Positions 22,766 through 27,631 of a stretch of 64,000 nt of DNA are shown here, one piece after another (the stretch's first letter is position 1; every line of letters starts with the position of its first letter). This DNA is from Deltaproteobacteria bacterium (GTDB lineage: Bacteria > Myxococcota > UBA727 > VGSZ01), in assembly GCA_016177705.1 (NCBI GenBank), contig JACOUT010000008.1, forward strand, positions 124,001-188,000, given 5' to 3'. The notes beneath the pieces were generated by a model. The model searched no databases and was not told where the DNA came from. It was given only the letters and a program-made list of their open reading frames with translations. A program made the position numbers and the translations under genes.

Positions 22766-24040
22766 TCACCGACGTCGACGACGGACCGCGAGCCCCACGA
22801 GCGCCGCAACGCCGAGCAGCGCGTTGCCGCCGAGCGAGGAACACCCCGCGCACCCGTCCGGCGGATCGCCCTCGCCTTCGCCTTCACCGATGTCGCCCTC
22901 GCCCTCACCCTCGCCCTCGCCTTCGCCTTCGCCTTCACCCTCGCCCTCGCCTTCACCCTCGCCCTCGCCTTCGCCTTCGCCTTCGCCCTCACCTTCACCT
23001 TCACCGGTGTCCGGCACGCAGGTGTAGCCGTCGCCCGTGTAGCCAGGCAGGCACGAGCACACGAACGCGCCCGAAGTGTTGACGCAGCGCGCGTTCTCGC
23101 CGCAGTCGTCGGTCTCGAGGAAGCACTCGTTGACGTCGAGGCAGGCGATGCCGTTGCCGGTGAAGCCCGCGCGACAGGCGCACGTGAAGCCGAGCCCCGC
23201 GCCGTCGCAGTCGGCGTTCGCCGAGCAGTTGTCGACGCCGATGGCGCACTCGTCGGTGTCGGCGTCGCAGGGGTCGCCCTGGCCGTCGCCGTCGAAGTCC
23301 GCCTGGTCGCGGTTGACGAGGCCGAGGCAATTGTCGCAAAGGTCGCCGGCGTCGTCGCCGTCCTCGTCCTCCTGCCCGGGATCGGCCACCTCGGCGCAGG
23401 TGTCGCACAGGCCGCGTACGCCGTCGCCGTCACCATCGGCGGCGGCCGGGTCGCAGACCAGGAAGCGCACCACGGTGGTGGTGATGCTGTCGCCCACGTT
23501 GCCGAGCTGGCCGTCGGCATCGTTGCCGGCGACGAACAGGCGGTGGCGGCCCTCGCGCAGGTCGGTCAGCTCGATGTTCCAGCTCGCCTCACCTGCCAGG
23601 TCGTAGTCCTCGGGGCCCGGATCGTCGTCGGCCGTGCCCGGGCCGTTCAGGACAGTGGGGCCGTGCGTCAGCTCGTTATCGAGCGTGTCCGCGAAGTCGA
23701 CCTGGAACTGCTCGGTGACGCTCGGCAGGAAGATGCCGGCCGCCGTGGTCGACATGCCGAAGCCCGCGCGCACGCCGGGACTCGTCGCCTGCTTGCGCAC
23801 GCGCAGCGTGAACAGTGCGTCGTCGCCCACCTGGTACTCGGGCAAGAGACCCTCGACGAGCACCTCGGGCGGCAGCGTGCCCGTAGTGTGGCAGGCGCGG
23901 CAGATGCGAACCTGCCCGTACTGGTCGAGGTGCTCGCCGCTGTAGCCGAAGATGCCGTTCGGTAGCGCTGCCGCGCCGGGGGCGAGTACGACCACCGTTG
24001 CGATCATCGCGGCGATCGCCGGCGCGCCACCACCGCGCAC
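22766..24040 (-). CDS. Surface protein: CxxCH region, Ca-binding repeats, EGF-like domains, GE linker, MYXO-CTERM tail
   Basis: The product has 424 residues. After a signal peptide (about 8-26) comes one haem-type motif CRACH (47-51). An immunoglobulin-like beta region follows. Then come Asp-rich thrombospondin type 3-like repeats (DGDGDGVRGLCDTC, DLCDNC, DFDGDGQGDPCD), two EGF-like modules (DECAIGVDNC and NECFLETDDC) and a (Gly-Glu)n linker. The C-terminus ([20 protein letters not shown] plus five Arg) is a MYXO-CTERM-type anchor. GTG 24040 was chosen because AAGGG lies 6 bases upstream; a TTG at 24046 would overlap the GMC gene. It is last in a four-gene operon, so it may be the electron acceptor or anchor for the flavoprotein. 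Confidence 0.85.
   Translation of the reverse strand: MRGGGAPAIAAMIATVVVLAPGAAALPNGIFGYSGEHLDQYGQVRICRACHTTGTLPPEVLVEGLLPEYQVGDDALFTLRVRKQATSPGVRAGFGMSTTAAGIFLPSVTEQFQVDFADTLDNELTHGPTVLNGPGTADDDPGPEDYDLAGEASWNIELTDLREGRHRLFVAGNDADGQLGNVGDSITTTVVRFLVCDPAAADGDGDGVRGLCDTCAEVADPGQEDEDGDDAGDLCDNCLGLVNRDQADFDGDGQGDPCDADTDECAIGVDNCSANADCDGAGLGFTCACRAGFTGNGIACLDVNECFLETDDCGENARCVNTSGAFVCSCLPGYTGDGYTCVPDTGEGEGEGEGEGEGEGEGEGEGEGEGEGEGEGEGEGEGDIGEGEGEGDPPDGCAGCSSLGGNALLGVAALVGLAVRRRRR
22866..23005. repeat. Degenerate hexanucleotide repeat encoding Gly-Glu
   Basis: On the minus strand this stretch encodes about 20 Gly-Glu units, broken once by Asp-Ile. The hexamers are mixed (TTCGCC, CTCGCC, CTCACC, TTCACC on the plus strand), so the amino-acid repeat is kept although the DNA repeat has drifted. 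It links the EGF-like part to the membrane anchor. Confidence 0.85.
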
Positions 24041-24042
24041 GG

Positions 24043-25605: not shown

Positions 25606-26222
25606 GGCGTCCCTCCGTCGACCGGCGCGGGGGATCCCGGAGGCATCTCCACGGCGTCCCGCGCACGCAGCGCGGCCAGGTCGACGACGAGCGGGCCGCG
25701 CGCCGTGATGGCGGGCGGCTCCGGTTTGGCGATCGACGGCGTGTAGCCGAGCGCCGCCGCCGCCGGCGGGGTCGCGTAGTGCGCGGCCAGACAGAGCTTG
25801 CGCAGGCCCTGGTAGGCCGAGCGCAACAGCGCCAGGCGCGAGTCACCCCAGCGGCGCAGCGCCTCGTCCTGCTGTTGCTCCTTGAGCATGGTGAACGGCG
25901 TGGGCCGGCCACCCGTCAGCAAGGAGACCAGGGCGTTGTCGAGCAGGCCGAGCGCGAGGCCGAGATCCTTTTGCACCTCGGGCGGCGCGAAGCGCAGCGC
26001 GGTGTCGACGGCGTGGGCGACCGAGAGCGGGTCCGCGGTGGTGCGCGCCACGACGCGCGCCGCCAGCGCTACCAACACGGCGAACTGCGCTTCGGACAAC
26101 GACGCGAGCGGCACGCGCGGACGAACCGAGCGATCGCCGGGCAGCACCGCCAGCGTGGTGCCGGCGACGGCGAGCAGCGCGCCGCCGACGATGCCGAGCT
26201 TGAGGAAGCCACGACGCTTCAT
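25602..26222 (-). CDS. Tat-exported small subunit (gluconate dehydrogenase subunit 3-like)
   Basis: The product has 206 residues. The N-terminus MKRRGFLKLGIVGGALLAVA is a twin-arginine signal (RRGFLK plus hydrophobic stretch). The helical rest (LSEAQFAVLVALAARVVARTT, ALGLLDNALVSLLTG, ALRRWGDSRLALLRSAYQGL) resembles the small chaperone-like subunit that carries GMC dehydrogenases through the Tat system. Its start overlaps the pseudo-receiver stop (TGATG) and its stop overlaps the GMC start (GTGA). Folded flavoprotein export by hitch-hiking is the likely role. A cytochrome subunit of the classical three-part enzyme is absent; the downstream CxxCH protein may replace it. Confidence 0.85.
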   Translation of the reverse strand: MKRRGFLKLGIVGGALLAVAGTTLAVLPGDRSVRPRVPLASLSEAQFAVLVALAARVVARTTADPLSVAHAVDTALRFAPPEVQKDLGLALGLLDNALVSLLTGGRPTPFTMLKEQQQDEALRRWGDSRLALLRSAYQGLRKLCLAAHYATPPAAAALGYTPSIAKPEPPAITARGPLVVDLAALRARDAVEMPPGSPAPVDGGTP

Positions 26223-27631
26223 CAGAAGTAGCTTATCCGACGCGCCGAGGCGTGGCCCCAGCCGACAAAGCGGACCAGATCGAGGCACAAGAGCGCCGCC
26301 GTCAGGCCGCGCACGGTGCGCGCGGGCACGGTGTCGAACAGCGTCACGAGGTCGCCGACCGTCTTGGTGCCGTCCATCGCCACCACCACGCGCGCCTCTT
26401 CGGCCGACAGCGGCAGATCCTGCAGGCCGTAGCCAGCGTCGCCGGAGGGCGAGAAGCGCGCGTCGTCGGGCGCGGCGGCGAGCAGCGCGGCGTCGCTCTC
26501 GGTCAACAGGATGCCCCGCAGGATGACGTCGGCGACCGTCACCTGCACCGGCACCACCTCACGCGTCGCTCGCCCCTCGAGCGTGACGCGCATGGTGCCC
26601 GACGGCCACGCGAACGAGGCGATGGCCACCCTGCGCGTGTGCTCCTCGATCAGCTTGCGCAGCTCGGGCTCGGCGAGCAGGCCGCGCGCCAGGATCGCCT
26701 CGGCGACGGTCTTCCTGCGCCCTTGCAGCACGTCGTCGCGCACGAGCGCGATGTCGTCGGCCGAGATCAGCGCCTTCTTGTGCGCCAGCGTCGACAAATC
26801 CTCGGACTCTAGGTTGGAGCGCGCGCCCACCACCGAGCCGCGCCGCAACAGCAGCACGCGGCGCGCGCGGCCGTTGGTGACCCACAGCTCGCCCGTTGTC
26901 TGCGACTGCGCGAAGGCGTCGAGCATGTCGGCGTAGCCGCGCGGCGACAGCGGCAGCTCGCCGCGCGCCTCGGGCACCGGCGCGGGCGCGGCGCGGCGCT
27001 CCTTGACGCGCGCCCACAGGTCGGCGAGCGCCCCGGGCGAGTAGGCGCGCTTGGCCTCGGGCGCGGGCGCGCCTGCCGCGGTACCCGGCGCCGCGATCGG
27101 CTGGGCGATGCCGGGGTCGGCGGCACGCGCCGCCTCGTCGCTCGGGTCGGCCTCCGCGGCCGCGACCTCGACGTCGAGCAGCAGCTCGTCGTCGTCGTCC
27201 TCGACGACGGCGCCTTCGCCGGACGCGAGCGGCATGTTCGGCGCCTCGGAGCCGCCCTCGCCCTTGTGCAACGAGAGGCCGGCAAGCCGCGCAGCCGTCT
27301 CGATGAGGGTGAGCGAGCGAAACGGGCGAGAGAACGACGCGTCCATGGTCGCGATGCGCGTCATGGCGGCCTCGTCGTCGGCCGGCAGGCTCTGCGGGTA
27401 GGTCACCACCACGGTGGCGCCGAGCTCGGCGCGCAACAGCTCGCCCACCTCTTCGCCGGTGGCGTCGGGCAGGTCGTGCTCGAGCACCACCACGCGCGGC
27501 CGCAGCTCGAGCGCGCGCTCGAGCGCCTCGACGCCGGTGCGCGCGCGCGCCGCATGGAGGCCATACTGCTCGAACAGCGCCGCCAGCAGATCGCCCAGCT
27601 CTCCCGGATCGACGACGAGGACCTCGCCCAT
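26222..27631 (-). CDS. Pseudo-receiver protein with DUF4388/PatA-like domain
   Basis: The product has 469 residues. Residues 1-120 look like a receiver domain, but the phospho-acceptor position holds Glu51 (VVVLEHDLPDATG), the acidic pair is reduced to Asp8-Pro9, and the conserved Lys is Arg (SFSRPF). It is therefore unlikely to be phosphorylated and may be locked in one state. A charged linker (about 130-230) leads to a DUF4388/PatA-like region (GELWVTNGRARRVLLLRRGS onward, about 265-350) and a C-terminal helical region (about 380-469). It starts the operon with the Tat subunit and GMC genes. A regulatory or scaffolding role is an inference. Confidence 0.82.
   Translation of the reverse strand: MGEVLVVDPGELGDLLAALFEQYGLHAARARTGVEALERALELRPRVVVLEHDLPDATGEEVGELLRAELGATVVVTYPQSLPADDEAAMTRIATMDASFSRPFRSLTLIETAARLAGLSLHKGEGGSEAPNMPLASGEGAVVEDDDDELLLDVEVAAAEADPSDEAARAADPGIAQPIAAPGTAAGAPAPEAKRAYSPGALADLWARVKERRAAPAPVPEARGELPLSPRGYADMLDAFAQSQTTGELWVTNGRARRVLLLRRGSVVGARSNLESEDLSTLAHKKALISADDIALVRDDVLQGRRKTVAEAILARGLLAEPELRKLIEEHTRRVAIASFAWPSGTMRVTLEGRATREVVPVQVTVADVILRGILLTESDAALLAAAPDDARFSPSGDAGYGLQDLPLSAEEARVVVAMDGTKTVGDLVTLFDTVPARTVRGLTAALLCLDLVRFVGWGHASARRISYF

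Follow-up and report, generated by a model that had tools for sequence, protein, structure and literature searches.

The genes described here lie on the minus strand of a 64,000-nucleotide stretch of DNA from a Deltaproteobacteria bacterium of the Myxococcota (contig JACOUT010000008.1, positions 124,001 to 188,000), which we call the window and within which all coordinates are given. A check of the open reading frames of the window places four of them there in a row, encoding a receiver-like regulator, a small subunit exported by the twin-arginine translocation (Tat) pathway, a GMC flavoprotein and a predicted surface protein with a CxxCH motif. The genes and their features, in the order in which they would be transcribed, are the following:

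26222..27631, minus strand: regulator of 469 amino acids with a pseudo-receiver and a DUF4388 (PATAN-type) domain (Pfam)
25602..26222, minus strand: Tat-exported small subunit of the Gluconate_2-dh3 type (PF13618 below threshold; RRGFLK)
24043..25605, minus strand: GMC flavoprotein of 520 amino acids with a flavin adenine dinucleotide (FAD) fold (Pfam; PDB alignment)
25071-25039, minus strand: predicted 3Fe-4S ligands C179-x5-C185-x3-C189 of the GMC protein (alignment to BcGDH)
22766..24040, minus strand: surface protein with a choice-of-anchor V domain, two EGF modules, a Gly-Glu stalk and a MYXO-CTERM-like tail (NF041895, Pfam)
23888..23902, minus strand: CRACH, residues 47-51 of the surface protein, predicted haem c attachment site (sequence; family alignments)
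23663..23674, minus strand: ELTH, residues 123-126, with the second conserved His, a candidate distal haem ligand (alignments)
22766..23005, minus strand: Gly-Glu stalk (from residue 346), followed by the MYXO-CTERM-like Cys motif CAGCSS (from residue 397, position 22852) and the tail (sequence)

The first-pass annotation of this DNA had described four genes that overlap or nearly touch, and the junctions agree with that description. The regulator stop codon and the start of the Tat subunit overlap as TGATG, the Tat and GMC genes share 4 bases (GTGA), and the CxxCH gene starts, with GTG, 2 bases past the GMC stop and has AAGGG upstream of this GTG. In the source lineage, the four genes are likely co-transcribed as one unit. 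By conservation, the row falls into three blocks, namely, two unrelated modules (the Tat subunit with the GMC protein, and the CxxCH protein) and a regulator; among the genomes compared, it is specific to one lineage and does not represent a general new system.

The first module is a widespread Myxococcota pair of the gluconate 2-dehydrogenase type. The small subunit begins with MKRRGFLK followed by a hydrophobic stretch, and the GMC protein has no signal sequence of its own. PF13618 (Gluconate_2-dh3) scores 20.1 bits on the window subunit, just under the cut-off of 23.4, and matches eight of the 11 members of the small-subunit family that were scanned (best 4e-13). Both GMC domains lie far over their Pfam cut-offs (GMC_oxred_N, 172 bits; GMC_oxred_C, 73 bits), and the best PDB matches of the protein are the large subunits of FAD-dependent glucose dehydrogenase (FAD-GDH) and fructose dehydrogenase (FDH), with which the Cys motif is aligned and the catalytic pair His453/Asn497 is in register. 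Cys179, Cys185 and Cys189 align onto Cys212, Cys218 and Cys222 of BcGDH, which are the ligands of a 3Fe-4S cluster (PMC6719666), and the C-x5-C-x3-C motif is kept in 27 of 27 GMC proteins compared. The Tat partner lies directly upstream of the GMC gene in 25 of 26 related loci, usually overlapping it by 4 bases, and the one exception has its GMC gene at a contig end. The initial assignment of the pair, based on its RRGFLK motif and signal-less GMC protein, is borne out by its sequence and by the Pfam and PDB matches.

With the direct-electron-transfer FAD dehydrogenases (Burkholderia FAD-GDH, fructose dehydrogenase and gluconate 2-dehydrogenase), the pair shares a signal-less GMC catalytic subunit, a Tat small subunit and a 3Fe-4S Cys motif in register (PMC6719666). 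It differs from them in its low similarity to the solved members, in a Tat signal that is apparently uncleaved and in the lack of an adjoining multihaem cytochrome subunit. The first reading had already remarked on this lack: such a subunit occurs neither beside the pair in the window nor consistently across the 26 related loci. Among 25 listed Tat orthologues, AxA sites are inconsistent, and a basic residue follows the hydrophobic stretch in 24, approximately 24-32 residues past the twin arginine; the small subunit probably acts as an uncleaved inner-membrane anchor and "hitchhiker" carrier for the GMC protein. The source genome holds additional Tat-linked GMC pairs, and one of its loci (L149, G000:C19:252543-262000) encodes a 638-amino-acid GMC protein whose N-terminal extension resembles a fused Gluconate_2-dh3 subunit. 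At two loci of the nearest relatives (L062 and L064), genes that we named by eye as enoyl-CoA hydratase-like and acyl-CoA dehydrogenase-like flank the pair, hinting at a lipid-related GMC substrate.

The annotation had also taken all four genes as one operon system. We searched 195 Myxococcota genomes, many of them fragmented assemblies, and found a close GMC homologue in 76 and the choice-of-anchor V domain, which carries the CxxCH motif, in 91. Both genes are present in 37 genomes and, by a count from the search lists, they are adjacent in the source genome only; elsewhere, the smallest distance between the two on one contig is 46.5 kb (G146). Direct reading of 26 GMC neighborhoods revealed none with a CxxCH protein of this family beside the GMC gene. 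The three nearest relatives, which belong to the same family as the source organism, keep the Tat-GMC pair with other genes downstream and carry their choice-of-anchor V genes on other contigs. A conserved four-gene order is therefore rejected: it is absent from the relatives, and the last gene is unlinked to the GMC gene in the 36 other genomes that have both.

The CxxCH protein belongs to choice-of-anchor V (NCBIfam NF041895; 51.3 bits, cut-off 42), a named but functionally undescribed family. EGF_3 and EGF_CA also exceed their Pfam cut-offs, and the tail is laid out as is typical of MYXO-CTERM, with the Cys motif, a hydrophobic segment and RRRRR. In the architecture first proposed for this protein, the CRACH motif, EGF modules, Gly-Glu stalk and tail layout hold; there is a weak thrombospondin-3 match, and the tail falls below the cut-off of its hidden Markov model. 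The MXAN_6652 family (NF041894) was rejected as an assignment, since it scores 38.6 bits against an equivalog minimum of 200. No full-length homologue was found in the 195 genomes, the matches being mostly to EGF repeats. With other members of its family, the window protein shares the CxxCH region, an E-x-T-H motif, and an N-terminal head combined with a predicted C-terminal surface anchor; it is nevertheless divergent (51 bits, versus about 150 in the best Myxococcaceae members) and is set apart by its EGF/Gly-Glu stalk and its adjoining GMC gene. Elsewhere in the Myxococcota, the domain likewise forms the head at the N-terminus, in many cases borne by a stalk of PKD, Ig-like, thrombospondin, calcium-binding or MopE copper-binding repeats, and most of the stalked members read end in a MYXO-CTERM-like tail. 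At one locus (L172:1911-5321), ten putative copper-binding motifs of the MopE type come after it. In the literature searched, we found no functional paper on choice-of-anchor V or MXAN_6652, and nothing on Gluconate_2-dh3 with GMC proteins that bears on the function of the domain. The early remark that no such system had been described is partly wrong: both halves belong to named families, and it is the function of choice-of-anchor V for which we found no description.

Conservation of the domain was assessed in 44 Myxococcota proteins and in a further 44 loci, of which 36-40 were aligned, drawn from Myxococcota, Chloroflexi, Ignavibacteria, Pseudomonadota, Acidimicrobiales and others; the gene caller left the low-GC loci L088 and L089 unresolved. 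Every complete homologue examined has C-x(1-4)-C-H, and both Cys and the His are invariant in two alignments, of 36 and of 40 sequences; this is the opposite of the lack of conservation that, according to the first-pass annotation, would refute its reading. Conservation is about 90% for the Glu and the His of E-x-T-H (at least 90% in the same two alignments) and also for a GN...GD stretch, and an 11-sequence alignment shows both residues of E-x-T-H as invariant. Since CxxCH is conserved in the family, a single haem on the surface protein is plausible. Its attachment would also be feasible in the source organism, because the window encodes ResB and CcsA: at 52929-56346 on the plus strand, a small multihaem cytochrome (four CxxCH; Cytochrome_C554), ResB and CcsA stand in a row as a System II operon for the maturation of cytochrome c. 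AlphaFold2 models the domain as an all-beta sandwich, with a mean predicted local distance difference test score of 75.8 for the window domain and 91.1 for an Archangium domain. Kinship with cytochrome f, prompted by a weak profile match (E about 0.4-1.4) and by the N-terminal CxxCH, was rejected; the 50 Foldseek matches listed for each of the two models do not include cytochrome f.

The best evidence on the role of the head comes from its fusions. In four unrelated bacteria, choice-of-anchor V is fused to PF07995, a glucose/sorbosone dehydrogenase domain whose family has pyrroloquinoline quinone (PQQ) enzymes among its members, and in a fifth it is combined with cytochrome c domains:

L134:1269-3536, Luteimonas: choice-of-anchor V and PF07995
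L139:4764-6704, gammaproteobacterial metagenome-assembled genome (MAG): choice-of-anchor V and PF07995
L137:4902-7115, Myxococcota MAG: choice-of-anchor V and PF07995
L142:3815-5875, Anaerolineales MAG: choice-of-anchor V and PF07995
L140:4857-6833, Acidimicrobiales: choice-of-anchor V, PKD and three cytochrome c domains

In this survey, 17 of the more distant loci were read and their six longest proteins scanned with Pfam; five contain redox domains, and none contains another kind of enzyme. No obvious redox genes adjoin the stand-alone choice-of-anchor V genes in other phyla. Because the CxxCH head is fused to dehydrogenases and cytochromes, these proteins suggest that it may be an overlooked single-haem domain for electron transfer, acting as a relay. 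This would be reminiscent of fungal AA8, a small haem b cytochrome domain that is found with GMC enzymes (as in cellobiose dehydrogenase) and with PQQ dehydrogenases alike (PMC4332668, PMC6881789). The resemblance is a functional one: the haem of AA8 is haem b and its sequence has no CxxCH, we saw no sequence similarity between it and choice-of-anchor V, no member of our alignments has a Pfam match to AA8, and AA8 is not among the listed fold matches. A likeness of another kind is found in X183, the c-type cytochrome domain of the bacterial protein Cbp2D, which is secreted and modular: X183 has a single CxxCH and transfers electrons, as is proposed for the choice-of-anchor V head. X183 is, however, a helical class I cytochrome c, whereas the choice-of-anchor V domain is predicted to be all-beta (PMC8981238). 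In its fullest form, the proposal would make choice-of-anchor V an unrecognized all-beta, single-haem cytochrome c family of several phyla, the bacterial functional counterpart of AA8, encoded here with a Tat-exported GMC protein as a redox-active surface head. We offer this only tentatively and consider it rather improbable as a whole.

The locus as a whole is best explained by two separately evolved envelope redox modules within one likely transcription unit. We put the probability of this reading at about 0.6; its inferred parts are co-transcription, the iron-sulfur cluster, the attachment and ligands of the haem, location, substrate and acceptor. The Tat partner would carry the folded, signal-less GMC protein across the inner membrane and probably keep it tethered there. 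The GMC protein would then work as a periplasmic FAD dehydrogenase whose electrons pass from FAD by way of a 3Fe-4S cluster at its surface to an acceptor. This acceptor would be a general periplasmic or membrane one, because the pair has no dedicated cytochrome gene retained next to it. The choice-of-anchor V protein would be exported by Sec, CcsBA-type machinery would probably add one covalent haem at CRACH, and the MYXO-CTERM-like tail would sort the protein, so that its stalked beta-sandwich head could relay electrons on the outside of the cell. Because MYXO-CTERM proteins undergo processing at the inner membrane before they reach the cell surface (PMC11980579), the GMC protein and the surface protein would make contact only in passing or through intermediates.

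Several observations weigh against parts of this reading. The MYXO-CTERM tail model TIGR03901 scores 14.5 bits on the surface protein, below its cut-off of 20, and the Tat anchor is read from sequence alone. Two Ignavibacteria members (L132:1515-2579 and L141:4890-6020) have CxCH, an unusual haem site, and the second His is missing in about 11% of one set. With both models, Foldseek returned only generic Ig-like, cohesin or Reelin-like sandwiches, and no haem protein of matching fold is among the matches listed. Neither the haem of the domain nor the cluster of the GMC protein was observed directly here.

The gene order itself may be coincidental: the last gene would have landed behind the Tat-GMC pair and would use its promoter without any functional tie, while its domain might still be a haem relay. 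We give this an even chance; it overlaps with the explanation by two modules, which leaves a functional tie undecided. The adjacency in one lineage among the 37 genomes with both genes favors it, as does the regulator orthologue in genome G002, which likewise sits away from the GMC gene, on a different contig. Conversely, the two-base spacing suggests coupled translation, and the family is represented by four genomes, which limits the view of how old the linkage is.

Alternatively, the domain may carry no haem at all, with the two Cys and the His forming a disulfide or binding a metal in a surface domain that serves structure or adhesion, and the neighboring genes being coincidental. The generic fold, the inter-Cys spacing that ranges from 1 to 4 residues and the many members on adhesive-type stalks fit this account, which we nevertheless judge unlikely. 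A disulfide alone would not need the His that invariably follows the second Cys in complete members, spacings of 2-4 residues occur naturally in haem c sites, and the fusion partners of the domain include cytochrome c and PQQ-type dehydrogenase domains.

The least credible alternative, which we consider very doubtful, is the model of the first-pass annotation, a dedicated circuit whose exported GMC protein reduces the haem of the co-transcribed surface protein in place of the missing multihaem cytochrome subunit: the tight same-strand spacing, the AAGGG before the GTG, the lack of an adjoining cytochrome subunit, a possible meeting of the two proteins during the inner-membrane stage before export (in the model of PMC11980579) and the fusions, because of which the domain can probably partner dehydrogenases, speak for it, but the genes are unlinked in all other genomes with both, the 26 GMC loci read do without the last gene, and the predicted final locations lie on opposite membranes (PMC11980579). 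Because of these locations, a direct passage of electrons from the window GMC protein to the haem of the CxxCH protein would need to span the envelope and would be quite improbable.

A more interesting outcome than the operon itself is that choice-of-anchor V may be an unrecognized cytochrome c-type domain. If it carries haem, many myxobacterial surface proteins would be surface cytochromes, given the 91 Myxococcota genomes that encode it, there would be a testable electron route at the myxobacterial surface, and bacteria would have a counterpart of the AA8 cytochrome of fungi. As for the Tat-GMC pair, it becomes testable how a widespread 3Fe-4S-type dehydrogenase without a cytochrome subunit passes its electrons on.

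The regulator at the head of the row deserves the pseudo-receiver label it was first given. Response_reg scores 22.1 bits, under its cut-off of 30.2, and the protein fails as a response-regulator receiver in that the phospho-acceptor Asp and the conserved Lys are both replaced, the former by Glu (VVVLEHD) and the latter by Arg (SRPF for the KPF motif). DUF4388 is matched with 40.8 bits (Pfam cut-off, 25). The gene adjoins the Tat-GMC pair only in the source genome and, with a 560-bp gap, in G005. Genes for the regulator, a metallophosphatase and RNase III stand in the same divergent arrangement in the window (26222-29255) and at the G005 locus (L067).

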